64,000 nucleotides of DNA from Pseudomonadaceae bacterium (GTDB taxonomy: Bacteria; Pseudomonadota; Gammaproteobacteria; Pseudomonadales; Azotimanducaceae): contig JANSXA010000002.1 of the NCBI GenBank assembly GCA_024743175.1, positions 62,001 through 126,000 on the forward strand. The letters are read 5' to 3'. This document shows, in pieces, positions 6,223-49,357 of this stretch (within the stretch, counting starts at the first letter, position 1; every line of letters starts with the position of its first letter). A program made the position numbers and the translations under genes. The notes beneath the pieces were generated by a model. That model was not told the origin of the DNA. It worked only from the letters and a program-made list of their open reading frames with translations, and did not search any database.

Positions 6223-6450
6223 ATCAGCTACCCGCTTCTTCCTGCCCGCCTTACTTGTACTTACCGCAAAGCCTCAACAGGCTTAAGGATGCATCAGGAA
6301 CTGTTCAACTGCCAGCCGCATCGCAACCCGCAATACTGATTTAATTCGATATAACTGTTATTCGTGCCCGATTGTAACGTAAGCTTTAGTGCTGACAGCC
6401 ACACGCCAGTTACCTCCGCCGCTACAACCTTTGAACAACTGAGAGTTTGC

Positions 6451-15652: not shown

Positions 15653-18271
15653 TTGCAGATACAACGTAGCAAAATAAGCCAAGCTGTGACCGCAGCGATC
15701 GCCACGATGGTGGCTGGATACGCAACCGGCCAGGAAGCCCGGCCAATTGAAGAAGTTGTTGTCACCGCGACGAAACGCGCCGTACCCATGCAGGACATCC
15801 CCGTGGCGGTTCAGGCGCTGACTTCAGATACCATCGACGATTTTGGTATCGCTAACTTCGAAGACTATCTGATCCAGTTACCTGGCGTGACCGCTGGTGG
15901 TAGCGGCCCGGGTCAGAACACCATCTATATTCGTGGTCTGGCCTCCACCACACCCAACCTGACCACCGCTGGTGTTGCGGGTCTGGCGCCCAACGTGGCC
16001 CTTTATCTGGATGAGCAACCGCTTTCGCAGCCGGGTCGCAACCTCGACGTATACGCGGCCGACCTGAACCGCATTGAGGTGCTGGCCGGACCCCAGGGCA
16101 CCCTGTTTGGTGCCAGCGCGCAGGCGGGTAACGTACGCCTGATCACCAATAAACCCGATACCACCGAGTCCTACGGCAAATTTAATGTGGGTACCTCCCT
16201 GACCAAAGGCGGCGATCCGAGCAGCAACCTGGAAGCTGTATTGAACTGGTCAATTGCCGACAACTTCGCTTTACGGGCAGTCGGCTATACCGACAAGCAG
16301 GGTGGTTACATTGACAGTGTCGCCGGTACCCGCGACGTAAGCGAAAGCGCGCGTTTCCGCACAGCGGACACCGTTCGCGCAAATGGTGAAGTTGTTGGCA
16401 GCCGCGTGGGATTCCAGGCAGGCGCCGATTTAACTGGCGTGGAATTCCGGCAAGCCACCAGTATCGAAGAAGACAACATTAACGAAACTCAGTATCGGGG
16501 TGGCCGCTTAAGCGCCCTGTGGGACATCAATGAAAACTGGAGTGCCAACGCCTCTGTGATGCAGCAGACATTGGATTCTGACGGTGTTTTCTTCGCTGAC
16601 CCGAACCTCGGGGATATGGAAATTCAGCGCTTTTCTGACGACAAAATCGAAGATGAGTTCACCAACTCAAACTGGACCATTGAAGGTCGGGTTGGCGCTC
16701 TGGAAGTCCTCTATACCGGCGCATTCACCGATCGTGAAACAGAACAGCGAGTCGACTATGCTGACTACCTGTTTGTCGGTCAGTATATTCCGTACTACAT
16801 CTGCGATAGCACAGTGAGCTATCCAGGTGCGGCGGCGCCTACCGGCGTGTGTCAGGCACCAAACCTGTACGTCGACTCCACAACGGAAACCGAAGTGTGG
16901 TCCCACGAGTTCCGCGTCACCACGCCCATGGAACATTCCGTTCGCGCCACCGGTGGCATATTCATGAGTGATCTCGAACTGCGCGAGCGCAACGATTTCA
17001 CCTATCCGGGCAACACCAGTGCCAATGTCTTTGGTAGCCCGGGTTTTTTCCCCAACTTTCCAATGGCACCCCAGGACACTTCTGACCCGGGGCCTTTCCC
17101 TGCGGAAGTGATTTTCCGCAATGACGTCGAACGCACTGACGAACAGCAAGGTGTATTTGGTGAAGTGACCTGGGATATCAATGAATCCTGGGCGGTTACC
17201 GCAGGCGCGCGCTATTACGACATCGAAGTAGATTTCAAAGGCAGTGCCAATGGCTCATTCTGTAACTCCTTTCAGCCTGATGTGCAGAAATTTGGTACAA
17301 ATATCAGTGACTTGTACGACGGCGATGGCAGCTATACCTATCGCGGCTCGATCGGCAGCAATGTGTGTGGGGACAACATTTTGTTTACCCGTGATCAATC
17401 GCTTGCTGAGATTGAAGCTGCGGGCTTGACGCCTACCCAGGCTGAAGGCGTGTTTAATGCCCTGCGAGCGCCTGACAATGCACAAACTGATGGGGTCATC
17501 GGCAAATTCAGCGTTGCCTGGACCCCCAACGACGACATGATGTATTACTTCACCTGGTCTGAAGGCTTTCGGCCTGGTTTGCTGAACCGACCCGGTGGCG
17601 CCCCGGGGCCGGATGGTTTTACCGTACCTTTTGAACTCGATACCGATGATGTCGTCAACTACGAAGCAGGTTGGAAGCTGGACCTGCTGGATCGCACTTT
17701 GCGCCTGAACGGTAGTGTGTTCTTTGTGGAGGTGGAAAATCTGCAGACAACCATCTTTGATACAAGCATCACAAACCTGTTCTTCTCGGACAACGCCGCC
17801 GACGCGGAGATCATGGGCATCGAGGGTGACTTCATCTGGAACGCCTCACAAAACCTCACCGTCAGCGGTGCATTCTCTATCCTGGATAGCGAAATCACCA
17901 ACGTGATCACACCAACCGGGGATGTACGTGAAGGTGATGAGCTTTCCTATGCACCGGATTTCCAGGCTAACCTGAGTGCGCGTTACACGTGGTACATGGA
18001 CGGCGGTATGACTGCACATGTTATGCCACACGTCTCTTACTCTTCGGAAGCCCAGAGTGACGTGGTTGTCATCAATAACTCTGAAGTGGACAGCTGGCTT
18101 CTGACGGGTATCACAATGGGCATTGCGAAGGACGCATGGTCTGCGGTTCTGTTTGTCGACAATCTGTTTGATGAGGAAGCCGAGCTGTCCCGTAGTTTTG
18201 TCTTCGACAGAGAGCGCGTGACCTATGCCCGCCCGCAAACAGTTGGCTTACGCTTCTCGTTTGATTTCTAG
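15653..18271 (+). CDS. TonB-dependent outer-membrane receptor
   Basis: An 872-residue TonB-dependent receptor. The start is a TTG (ggagag seven bases upstream) because the signal peptide (residues 1 to about 26, ending near GYATGQE) must be included and no ATG serves. The TonB box and plug follow: RPIEEVVVTATKR, PGVTAGGSGPGQNTIYIRGL, and LNRIEVLAGPQGTLFGASAQAGNVRLITNKP. The barrel ends in VGLRFSFDF with a C-terminal Phe. It resembles the large pesticin/sphingomonad-type receptor group of oligotrophs. The next gene starts 12 bp later, so the receptor and the sulfotransferase form an operon. Its ligand is unknown. Confidence 0.92.
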   Translation: MQIQRSKISQAVTAAIATMVAGYATGQEARPIEEVVVTATKRAVPMQDIPVAVQALTSDTIDDFGIANFEDYLIQLPGVTAGGSGPGQNTIYIRGLASTTPNLTTAGVAGLAPNVALYLDEQPLSQPGRNLDVYAADLNRIEVLAGPQGTLFGASAQAGNVRLITNKPDTTESYGKFNVGTSLTKGGDPSSNLEAVLNWSIADNFALRAVGYTDKQGGYIDSVAGTRDVSESARFRTADTVRANGEVVGSRVGFQAGADLTGVEFRQATSIEEDNINETQYRGGRLSALWDINENWSANASVMQQTLDSDGVFFADPNLGDMEIQRFSDDKIEDEFTNSNWTIEGRVGALEVLYTGAFTDRETEQRVDYADYLFVGQYIPYYICDSTVSYPGAAAPTGVCQAPNLYVDSTTETEVWSHEFRVTTPMEHSVRATGGIFMSDLELRERNDFTYPGNTSANVFGSPGFFPNFPMAPQDTSDPGPFPAEVIFRNDVERTDEQQGVFGEVTWDINESWAVTAGARYYDIEVDFKGSANGSFCNSFQPDVQKFGTNISDLYDGDGSYTYRGSIGSNVCGDNILFTRDQSLAEIEAAGLTPTQAEGVFNALRAPDNAQTDGVIGKFSVAWTPNDDMMYYFTWSEGFRPGLLNRPGGAPGPDGFTVPFELDTDDVVNYEAGWKLDLLDRTLRLNGSVFFVEVENLQTTIFDTSITNLFFSDNAADAEIMGIEGDFIWNASQNLTVSGAFSILDSEITNVITPTGDVREGDELSYAPDFQANLSARYTWYMDGGMTAHVMPHVSYSSEAQSDVVVINNSEVDSWLLTGITMGIAKDAWSAVLFVDNLFDEEAELSRSFVFDRERVTYARPQTVGLRFSFDF

Positions 18272-29796: not shown

Positions 29797-30249
29797 CTAA
29801 CCCCCTCGCCGCGCCCGCCCTGGTAAACGCGGCGTATTGATGAATGTAAAGACCCAGTGGATACCCATCACTAATAACAGGTCAAAGTGCTGATCCATTT
29901 GCCGGCTCAGCATCATGCCAAAAAGGAACGCAGCGACACACCACTGCCATCTCCAGCGTAATGTAAAAAAGTGAATGCCTGCAAAAACAAAATTGACTGC
30001 GAGTGCTGCAATAAGCAGGTCAACGCCACGGCCATCCAGATAATAGGGAATCGCAAGCCTGAACACCCACTCTTCCCACGCGGATACTGCACCGAGATAT
30101 ATCACCCAGCCTGACTTTTCGAGGCGCCAGTCCCGGTCGATGTAACAGGCATAAAGACTGAGGACCACAAGTATCACGAAACCCATGAATAAATATAAAG
30201 ATGGCTGGGCGAGCGCATTTGTCAGGCTTGCACTGAACAGACCTCGCAT
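29797..30249 (-). CDS. CPBP family intramembrane glutamic protease
   Basis: A membrane protease-like protein of the CPBP (Abi) family. Motif 1 is SAWEEWVFR (Glu59-Glu60...Arg64), motif 2 is FAGIH (Phe89, His93) and motif 3 is HWVFTFIN (His131, Asn138), so the catalytic set is complete. The ATG at 30249 gives 150 residues. The same frame stays open for 52 further codons upstream with protein-like content (RHGLPGAVLGSICFLHPE) up to the RDD stop at 30406-30408, so the true start may be a rare upstream codon. It is last in the quinoprotein-RDD-CPBP operon. Confidence 0.75.
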   Translation of the reverse strand: MRGLFSASLTNALAQPSLYLFMGFVILVVLSLYACYIDRDWRLEKSGWVIYLGAVSAWEEWVFRLAIPYYLDGRGVDLLIAALAVNFVFAGIHFFTLRWRWQWCVAAFLFGMMLSRQMDQHFDLLLVMGIHWVFTFINTPRLPGRARRGG

Positions 30250-30405
30250 CTCTGGATGCAGGAAACATATTGATCCAAGAACAGCACCGGGCAGACCGTG
30301 TCTTAAAAATACAGCTCTGAACGTAGCCAGGCGCCCACCGGTAAAATCCGGCGGCCGTTGGAGCCGACGTTGACTGGGCGAGGTGACGGGCTGCAGTCTG
30401 GCGCC

Positions 30406-30885
30406 TCAGGCTTGCTGTAGTGCTACACGAGCCACCACAGCTGTGCCTGATGCCAGGTCGTGCAGACAACGACGATCGCGGCGCAGGACAAATGCCTGAT
30501 CAATCAACGGCAGCAGCGCCCAGAAACCAACTAATGAGAACAGCAAAGGTAGATACAACAAGGGGAAAAACAGCGCGCGGATCAGGATAAGTCGCCACCA
30601 CGGCGCTTTTTCGCCGGATGTTGCATCAACAATCATAATGCCCATTACCATTTTGCCAACCGTCTGCCCACGGCGATGCAACAGCCACCCATTAAGCAGC
30701 AGATAACCGGCAACGCCAAGTCCGATACCGCGTAACCAGATTTGATTGCCCGCATAAGCATCAGCCGTTTCCATAGCACCGGAAACCAGCATGACCAGGA
30801 AACTAACCAGCGGCACGAGCACAAAATCGATGGCAGACGCGACCAGACGACGTCCCGTATGTGGACTTTGCAGAGCAGTATTCAT
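30406..30885 (-). CDS. RDD family membrane protein
   Basis: A 159-residue integral membrane protein of the RDD family. It begins MNTALQSPHTGRRLVASAIDFVLVP with the Arg-Asp pattern (GRRLVASAIDF) and ends with HDLASGTAVV. The family's role is not well known; members are linked to ion or small-molecule transport. Its ATG overlaps the quinoprotein stop as ATGA. The TGA stop is followed in the same frame by the CPBP reading frame. Confidence 0.83.
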   Translation of the reverse strand: MNTALQSPHTGRRLVASAIDFVLVPLVSFLVMLVSGAMETADAYAGNQIWLRGIGLGVAGYLLLNGWLLHRRGQTVGKMVMGIMIVDATSGEKAPWWRLILIRALFFPLLYLPLLFSLVGFWALLPLIDQAFVLRRDRRCLHDLASGTAVVARVALQQA

Positions 30886-47198: not shown

Positions 47199-48236
47199 TC
47201 AGGTAACGCTCTTCAGCACGCCTTCCATCCGGTAGGCGTGTGCTGCTGAACCTGCAAACAATGCACTTTTCTCCGCGTGTGAAAAATACATTGCTAAACG
47301 TTTGAAAGCATTCCAGCACACCTGGTAGCTGCACCACCGCTTCTGCACAGGAAAATTTGATTCAAACATTGCCCGGGATGGTGAAAAAGCTTCGATACAA
47401 AAGTCGACCCAGCTCTGCCAGGCAGCCGCCACCTCTATCGACCCTGGGGGTAAAGTGCGGTCACCCGAATAGTCAGGCATCCGTATCGGCAACGCGCCCA
47501 GCTTAACGAATACATTCTGCCGTCTGGCAACCTCTGCAATCAGACCGCGCCACTCCTCAAACACCTCTGCTGTCTTACCCCGGTAAGGACCACCCAGAAT
47601 CGGACTACCCACATGGTTGAGTACAATCGTCAGATCGGGGTGTTTATCCGCCAGCGCTGCCACTTCCTGCAACTGCGTGTGATAAACCCATATATCCAGA
47701 GTCATATCCATCCGGGTGAGCACTGCTGCTACAGCGTCTACCTGTGGGCTCATTAACAGTTGTGCGTCGGGCGAAACGTTTTGAATCAGGTCAGATGAAT
47801 GCCATCCGCTGGAAATTCTGATGCCGCGAAAACTGCCGCCAGAAAACTCAACATGTTTCTCCAGAAGCGGCTCAACTTTGTCTCCCAACATCACATCTAC
47901 ATTGCCAAACATGACGTCGCACGCCCGAGCAGAACCAAATCCACCGCTGGCACTCATGGCTGCCTGGCCTCGAACAAATTCAGTTTCACCAAGAGACCGC
48001 TCTTCTAACGGCCCGCGCTGGCGGTACATCGAATGACATTCAGCAAAGACAGAGGCGACAATCCTGTGGCCGCTGGCCATGTCTGCCGCCAGCTCGGGAA
48101 GCAGGTAGGTATATCCGTTGCGTAACCACAGATGATGATGGGGATCGACAATGGCTATATCCGGCTCCAGGATGTCCTCCTGCAGCTTGTTAAGCCAGTT
48201 GTCATCCGGCGCTGTTTGTCCCGTATTGGCTGCCAA
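47199..48236 (-). CDS. Amidohydrolase-2 family metal-dependent hydrolase
   Basis: A 345-residue TIM-barrel amidohydrolase. The metal motif DPHHHLW lies near residue 31, with later histidine/aspartate positions in VLNHVGSPILGG and MFESNFPVQ. The family includes lactonases and decarboxylase-like enzymes such as fuconolactonase. It starts at a TTG two bases after the stop of the redoxin gene, so it is in one operon with that gene. Substrate unknown. Confidence 0.85.
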   Translation of the reverse strand: MAANTGQTAPDDNWLNKLQEDILEPDIAIVDPHHHLWLRNGYTYLLPELAADMASGHRIVASVFAECHSMYRQRGPLEERSLGETEFVRGQAAMSASGGFGSARACDVMFGNVDVMLGDKVEPLLEKHVEFSGGSFRGIRISSGWHSSDLIQNVSPDAQLLMSPQVDAVAAVLTRMDMTLDIWVYHTQLQEVAALADKHPDLTIVLNHVGSPILGGPYRGKTAEVFEEWRGLIAEVARRQNVFVKLGALPIRMPDYSGDRTLPPGSIEVAAAWQSWVDFCIEAFSPSRAMFESNFPVQKRWCSYQVCWNAFKRLAMYFSHAEKSALFAGSAAHAYRMEGVLKSVT

Positions 48237-48238
48237 GT

Positions 48239-49357
48239 CTAATCCAGGTCTAACGGTCGATAGTAGTCCTTACCAGCTTCGGCAAACTCAGTGCGAAACT
48301 TCATGAAAGACTCTCCCGCTGATCCTTCTTCTGAAAGCGTCAGGTCCTGCCGGAAGAAATTTATACTGTCAGGATGCAGAGTGCGTGCCATCAGCCAGTA
48401 ATGCTCGGCTTTTTCGGCATAACCTTTTTCACGAAAAAAGTTACCCAGTCGAAAAGCAGCTTCAGCCTTTTCCTGCTCCGGCGTCCGCCTGCGAATGTTA
48501 TCAGTGACCTCATCAGCCGCTTGAACATAGACACTGGCGGCGCCGTTGCGCACCCAGTCTTTCAGTGCAGGCGCGTATGCATCCGTACCACCAAAGGGGT
48601 GTGTTTTGGCGTATGTGCCTTCGTCGATACGTACAATATTACCTGCCTCGTCAACCCAGGCTGCTGAGGGCACATTGACAAAGTTGAACGCGCTGCTGAT
48701 GGCGTGGTTGACGTCGACGATCTGAACATAGCTGGCTTTGGCTGCATCAAATATCGGTCCGGCTACAGCTTCGCCACCAGTATCCTGAGCTGCAGAGATA
48801 ATGACAAAGTCAGGGTCGTTTAATTCTTCATAAATAGATTGCCACACGGACACATCAAGTTGGCAGCCTCACCACGACGACCAGGTGATGATCAGAGCTT
48901 TCTTGCCCTTGAAGTCAGACATTCTAACGACATTACCCTGTCGATCCTGTATTTCAAATTCAGGCGCTTGTGCATTGGCGAACATAGATTGCCGGGTTGC
49001 CGGCATCTCACCGAAACTCCAGACCCGGGCATCGTCGTCAACAACCCAGGCCTGCTCCATCAAATCTGCAAAAGCGCTGACGTTGATCCACTGTTGGTCG
49101 TCTACAGTCTTGAGCAGATCAGAACCCTGCTGCAACGGAATGCACAACTCGCCCAGACAGGCACCTTCGGGCTTGAGGGTAAAACCATTTATCCTGGTCA
49201 GATCTTCTGGCAACACCCATAACCCGGGTTCTTGCAGGATACGTTTTACTCCAACCGCTTTGTCGCGAGCCAGGACGGTGGCACCTCTTTCCGGGCCGAG
49301 GCCCGTTTTCTCGAATGGGGTTCGCAGGTCCGGATGGGCCATTATTGCAGGGGCCAT
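48239..49357 (-). CDS. Redoxin/TlpA-like protein with in-frame TGA, probable selenoprotein
   Basis: A single reading frame of 373 codons is interrupted by one TGA at 48869-48871. The N-terminal half has a segment GFTLKPEGACLGELCIPL and then a redoxin domain from FANAQAPEFEIQDRQGNVVRMSDFKGK. The thioredoxin-like motif reads WSSW-(TGA)-GCQLD, so the TGA replaces the first Cys of a CxC motif and Cys165 follows as GC. After it come VNVPSAAWVDEAG with the expected cis-Pro, and a TPR-like tail. A selenocysteine at residue 163 is the simplest reading; a nonsense mutation of a Cys codon is the alternative. ATG 49357 has caggag upstream. Confidence 0.78.

Follow-up and report, generated by a model that had tools for sequence, protein, structure and literature searches.

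A probable UGC-type selenoprotein encoded across an in-frame TGA in a redoxin gene

The window analysed here, a stretch of 64,000 nucleotides (C14:62001-126000 of a 4.72 Mb genome that is 98% complete in 18 contigs), carries on its minus strand a gene (49357-48239) that, judged by its sequence and those of its relatives, almost certainly encodes one intact selenoprotein, a thioredoxin-fold oxidoreductase of the UGC-containing ResA/TlpA/Prx-like kind. The gene translates into 372 amino acids with a single TGA (48869-48871), at residue 163 in the context WSSW-*-GCQLD, and ends with a TAG (48241-48239). By alignment with homologues the TGA is predicted to encode selenocysteine (Sec), as the first residue of a W-U-G-C active site. 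A preliminary description, made from the letters of the DNA, had taken the gene for a probable selenoprotein, and this is supported by the presence of selA, selB, selC and selD in the genome, by homologues with cysteine and by a conserved SECIS-like hairpin.

The interrupted frame and its protein

When read with translation table 11, the gene falls apart into two separate ORFs of 162 and 204 amino acids, so that the standard code splits it at its active site. Both the single minus-strand frame with one TGA and the split to be expected in an automatic annotation had been pointed out before, and translation confirmed them. Open frames on both sides of a TGA are not rare in the window: at least 100 open codons on either side were found for 4 of its 2411 TGAs, and frame openness was therefore rejected as evidence for the redoxin TGA. 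Two of the other three (17255 and 17846) fall within an 872-aa ORF but on its antisense strand. The third (30406-30408, in 29797-30885 of the minus strand) has an RDD-family ORF on one side and a CAAX-protease-like ORF on the other; as these are different families, they are probably ordinary neighbouring genes. The case for the TGA at 48869-48871 rises above chance because one redoxin domain spans it.

The read-through protein scores 36.4 bits with Redoxin (PF08534, gathering cut-off 26.6) over residues 127-247 and 35.3 bits with AhpC-TSA (PF00578, gathering cut-off 26), and thus belongs to the redoxin/AhpC-TSA superfamily. The PF08534 domain crosses the TGA, in line with the earlier placing of the TGA inside a redoxin active site. 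The upstream half alone reaches 20.5 bits with PF00578, under the cut-off, and the downstream half alone has zero Pfam matches at E <= 0.001. An AlphaFold2 model based on 7 sequences is poor (mean pLDDT 56.2, pTM 0.40); its secondary structure suggests an N-terminal domain at about residues 26-117 and a helical C-terminal part at about residues 260-360, on either side of the redoxin domain (residues about 127-247). Given the quality of the model, its fold matches in the PDB (Etrx2, ResA, SdbA and others) count for no more than agreement with what the sequence search gave.

The column of residue 163 as well as G164, C165 and P230 are invariant in a 13-sequence family alignment that holds both Sec and Cys forms. 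Cys165 (TGC codon at 48863-48865) is the likely resolving cysteine of a Sec-Gly-Cys motif. Of the thioredoxin-type motif that had been proposed, Sec at the first active-site position stands, but the usual UxxC spacing does not, as a single Gly separates residue 163 from C165 (UxC). The N-V-P at residues 228-230 (48668-48676), noticed earlier in the redoxin part behind the TGA and presumably the cis-Pro loop of the redoxin fold, is conserved as well, N228 and P230 being invariant and V229 nearly so. What was not expected is a second pair of cysteines, Cys67-X4-Cys72 (49142-49159), which is invariant in the N-terminal part of Sec and Cys forms alike. The protein looks cytoplasmic, a signal peptide not being evident by eye at its N-terminus. 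A Sec paralogue in one of the relatives (L089:3814-4935) does have an apparent signal peptide by eye, unlike the window protein, which suggests that members of the family work in different compartments.

An amidohydrolase gene (PF04909, 47199-48236, minus strand) starts with a TTG at 48236, two bases past the stop of the redoxin gene, and band-7 and NfeD genes are found upstream (Pfam). The close junction had been read as a maintained operon. The junction is real, but the idea of a conserved operon was dropped, since tblastn (E <= 1e-4) gave no match for the amidohydrolase, band-7 or NfeD gene in the loci of the relatives, many of which have only about 1.5 kb of flank. The adjoining ORFs in loci with longer flanks (L050, L051, L053, L054, L083 and L091) differ by eye.

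Homologues and selenium machinery

Matches to the protein were found in 122 of the 195 related genomes searched, and all 49 matches listed down to E 1.4e-91 have exactly one TGA. At the 45 loci compared, a non-random set in that the four Cys loci were picked as long matches without a stop, the column of residue 163 holds TGA in 41 and TGC in 4 (L085 in genome G043, L086 in G146, L087 and L088 in G148). Five TGA loci are duplicates of proteins already counted, leaving 40 distinct proteins, 36 with Sec and 4 with Cys in the same column. The TGA thus stands where homologues have Cys, as is typical of bacterial selenoproteins, and the cysteine-containing homologues for which the preliminary description had proposed a search do exist. 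GC follows the site at 45 of 45 loci and W precedes it at 44, with Y in L084. A partial 46th match (L056, residues 133-187 only), in which a Cys aligns without the following GC, was not counted. Another copy (G059:C80:11153-11845) contains a TAG besides the TGA and is perhaps a decaying copy or an assembly error.

The source genome itself has three TGA copies, namely the window gene, one on C5 (62% identical) and one on C9 (30%). In a 369-genome sample of the class, two genomes besides the source genome (G284 and G505) had a match at E <= 1e-20, both with TGA before GC. In a tree of 41 rows, the WSSW sequences form a branch of 32 rows, all with Sec (support 100/97). Outside this branch, Sec and Cys rows occur together in two clades, L084 with L087 and L088 (100/99) and L090 with L085 (100/98); such mixing would mean repeated exchange between Sec and Cys, on joins that have long branches and were flagged by the program as possibly false.

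The selenium machinery, named earlier as something to look for, is complete in the source genome. In the profile search selA (518.4 bits), selB (424.3 bits) and selD (270.9 bits) all score over their cut-offs and selC is found as a tRNA-Sec with 71.7 bits (gathering score 47). The genes selA, selB and selC lie in a row on C7 (276126-279444), with selD at 290569-291483 of the same contig, and ARAGORN independently places a tRNA-Sec(tca) next to selB. Between selC and selD, within locus L082 (G000:C7:273001-292500), an element of about 9.3 kb resembles a prophage, having a tyrosine integrase and a match to a lambda-type tape-measure protein. The 23 bases at the 3' end of the tRNA-Sec (6355-6447 of L082 according to ARAGORN) are repeated exactly just past the integrase gene (copies at 6426-6448 and 15697-15719), which fits attachment sites, so that selC looks like the integration site of the element. 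The same region holds a 667-aa ORF (L082:17476-19479, minus strand) that joins a pyridine-nucleotide-disulphide oxidoreductase domain to a selD part following it.

For 59 of the 195 genomes the matches listed include one that carries a TGA and has an E value of about 4e-25 or lower. Of these genomes, 53 have selA, versus 55 of the 136 genomes without a TGA copy (p about 3e-11 by Fisher's test, or 3e-9 with selA counted by cut-off, shared descent being ignored). The selA match exceeds the curated cut-off in 49 of the 53; in G009, G057 and G065 it consists of pieces of 140-263 bits and in G103 of only 45 bits. In six TGA genomes (G010, G031, G032, G079, G086 and G115) neither a selA match nor a selB above the cut-off was found, and G103 likewise lacks a selB above the cut-off. 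All seven are draft assemblies with a completeness of 73-96% and between 50 and 520 contigs; in G031, G032, G086 and G115 there are partial matches to selB, of 170-195 bits. It is therefore likely, though not proven, that a sel gene was missed in these assemblies. For the genomes with Cys copies only (G146 and G148) the profile search yielded neither a selA match nor a selB above the cut-off; G043, which has one Cys and one TGA copy, has both selA and selB. Several relatives contain short SelB-like frames of 369-421 aa whose match to the selB model is confined to its first 257-332 positions (G009:C42:15817, G031:C367:12930, G032:C42:15484, G115:C8:90814 and G086:C207:38), in G009 alongside a full selB.

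A conserved hairpin and the alternative readings

The check for a stem-loop after the TGA that had been suggested turned up a SECIS-like hairpin (48837-48854, minus strand) conserved in the TGA forms. Its core stem pairs 48852-48849 with 48843-48840 (U-G-(C/U)-C with G-G-C-A) and closes an apical loop CGUGU (48848-48844), with G and U at loop positions two and three; the loop starts 20 nt downstream of the UGA. The two outer pairs are less conserved, and the window gene lacks the outermost of them. With a core stem defined by inspection of these same genes, the full core was found in each of the 33 distinct 42-nt stretches from TGA forms, versus none of the four Cys genes. Since the core pairs scarcely vary (one is C-G or U-G, three never change, and all shuffles score alike), they provide no covariation. 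RNAalifold finds the same hairpin unprompted, and both-sided changes occur at the two outer pairs: C-G is replaced by U-A in 6 rows and broken in 8 of 33, and G-C is replaced by C-G in 2 rows and broken in 1. The remote class-level genes L099 and L100, which are outside the 33, show TGTC-CGTGT-GGCA by eye.

As an isolated sequence the hairpin of the window gene folds no more strongly than shuffled sequences (z -0.76 to 0.07), and its minimum-energy fold is not the hairpin of the family. The bacterial SECIS model, as given in the consulted part of PMC13188914, has an apical loop 16-37 nt after the UGA with a G in the first two loop positions. The distance of 20 nt and the loop CGUGU agree with it, in a hairpin that is weak as a single fold. 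A bare SECIS pattern gave 7 matches in the whole genome versus 2 in a reversed control. Three of the 7 are the redoxin copies, and the other 4 have no long open frames on both sides, so that the pattern by itself points to no further selenoprotein.

The conservation of this stretch extends to its synonymous codons. For this analysis the synonymous codon use of 32 distinct, nearly full-length WSSW sequences (the 45 loci minus five identical, one partial, three remote Sec and four Cys) was compared with draws from the codons of the gene in question. The codons of residues 169-171 are frozen as GTG (32 of 32), CCC (30 of 30) and GTG (32 of 32). The mean excess codon identity is 0.43 over residues 164-176 (7 columns) versus 0.06 in the 158 other columns, and the stretch ranks best of 158 sliding windows. 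The rank test gives p 2.5e-5 for a stretch selected for its position behind the TGA, with no correction for relatedness.

Three other readings of the TGA were weighed and rejected on the conservation, the Cys homologues and the scores of the split domain. If a Cys codon had mutated to a stop, or a base were a sequencing error, the gene would be dead or misread, and a TGA is indeed one base away from a Cys codon and splits the frame under table 11. The same column, however, has TGA in 36 of the 40 distinct proteins, which come from many genomes, and in the three copies of the source genome, the sequence is conserved on both sides, and synonymous codons are frozen just after the TGA, which makes a pseudogene or misread base exceedingly improbable. 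We consider it just as implausible that the TGA is read as another residue, either as Trp by a changed code or through a near-cognate tRNA, giving W-W-G-C. Codes with TGA for Trp do occur in other bacteria, but here the aligned residue is Cys in all four homologues without the TGA, TGA also terminates several homologues and selA, and the genome has the full selABCD set.

The TGA might also be a genuine stop, kept for regulation, between a truncated protein of 162 aa and an independent one of 204 aa. An in-frame GTG (48853-48851) opens the 204-aa ORF and is preserved in 32 of 32 sequences. This GTG, however, lies inside the conserved hairpin, and the neighbouring CCC and GTG codons are frozen too; moreover, the redoxin domain scores only with both halves present and each of the four Cys homologues is one uninterrupted frame. 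Two separate products are accordingly very unlikely, and the reading as one selenoprotein is retained.

Proposed function and relation to known redoxins

In the mechanism that we propose, SelB bound to the hairpin would deliver Sec-tRNA(Sec) at the UGA during translation. Residue 163, as a selenolate, would then attack a disulfide or peroxide substrate, and Cys165 would resolve the product through a U-G-C selenenylsulfide. The Cys67-X4-Cys72 pair plausibly relays electrons and may form a second redox centre, with the helical C-terminal part as a plausible binding site for a partner. A broader proposal is offered tentatively, as it may well not hold: WSSW-UGC would be a distinct subfamily that has become fixed, with duplications in some genomes, mostly within a single gammaproteobacterial family, its Cys form not met in the genomes searched, and the combination of Sec-Gly-Cys, the N-terminal CX4C pair and the helical partner-binding part would make it a two-centre selenium relay enzyme.

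Among solved structures, the best sequence matches of the window protein are ResA, TlpA and Etrx2 (for example PDB 1st9, 1jfu and 2yp6), over the redoxin domain only. These are thiol-disulfide oxidoreductases with a CxxC site instead of Sec-Gly-Cys.

The Global Ocean Sampling survey of marine sequences (2008) already lists, in the consulted part of its text, a family 'Prx-like (UGC-containing)' with pfam00578, a UGC motif and 46 sequences (PMC2398784). Parts of later reviews use the names 'UGC-containing Prx-like' and 'UGC-containing TlpA disulfide reductase family' (PMC9312934, PMC13188914). By these descriptions the family shares with the window protein a pfam00578 or TlpA-like domain and Sec in a UGC motif. 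No literature on UGC selenoredoxins was found under the names WAxxUGC or ResA-like selenoprotein, and in the parts consulted the term UGC is absent from PMC12013277 and the term UGC-containing from PMC5029168. A family name thus exists, to which the literature consulted, as far as its accessible parts go, assigns no biochemical role.

Among the closest described families is NCBIfam NF041054 (WAxxUGC_long, ResA-like WAxxUGC motif-containing protein), with which the window protein is homologous over most of its length and shares U-G-C. The best stretch aligns residues 48-252 with positions 8-205 of the 354 in the model (E 3.1e-70), and the score of 237.2 bits is below the curated cut-off of 300, so that membership is not reached by score. 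The C5 copy is likewise below it (230 bits), whereas the C9 copy (L084) is over it with 489.8 bits. The window protein differs from the model by WSSWUGC instead of the WAxxUGC of its name, by a longer N-terminus and by its separate, well-supported tree branch (100/97). The selenoprotein reading itself stands, but not the novelty of its kind, since UGC selenoproteins were already catalogued in NF041054 and the ocean survey. By these comparisons the predicted selenoprotein is of a known kind, on a branch that the NF041054 model does not cover at its cut-off, and which, with its well-conserved SECIS-like hairpin and natural Sec and Cys relatives, offers material for testing why Sec is kept.
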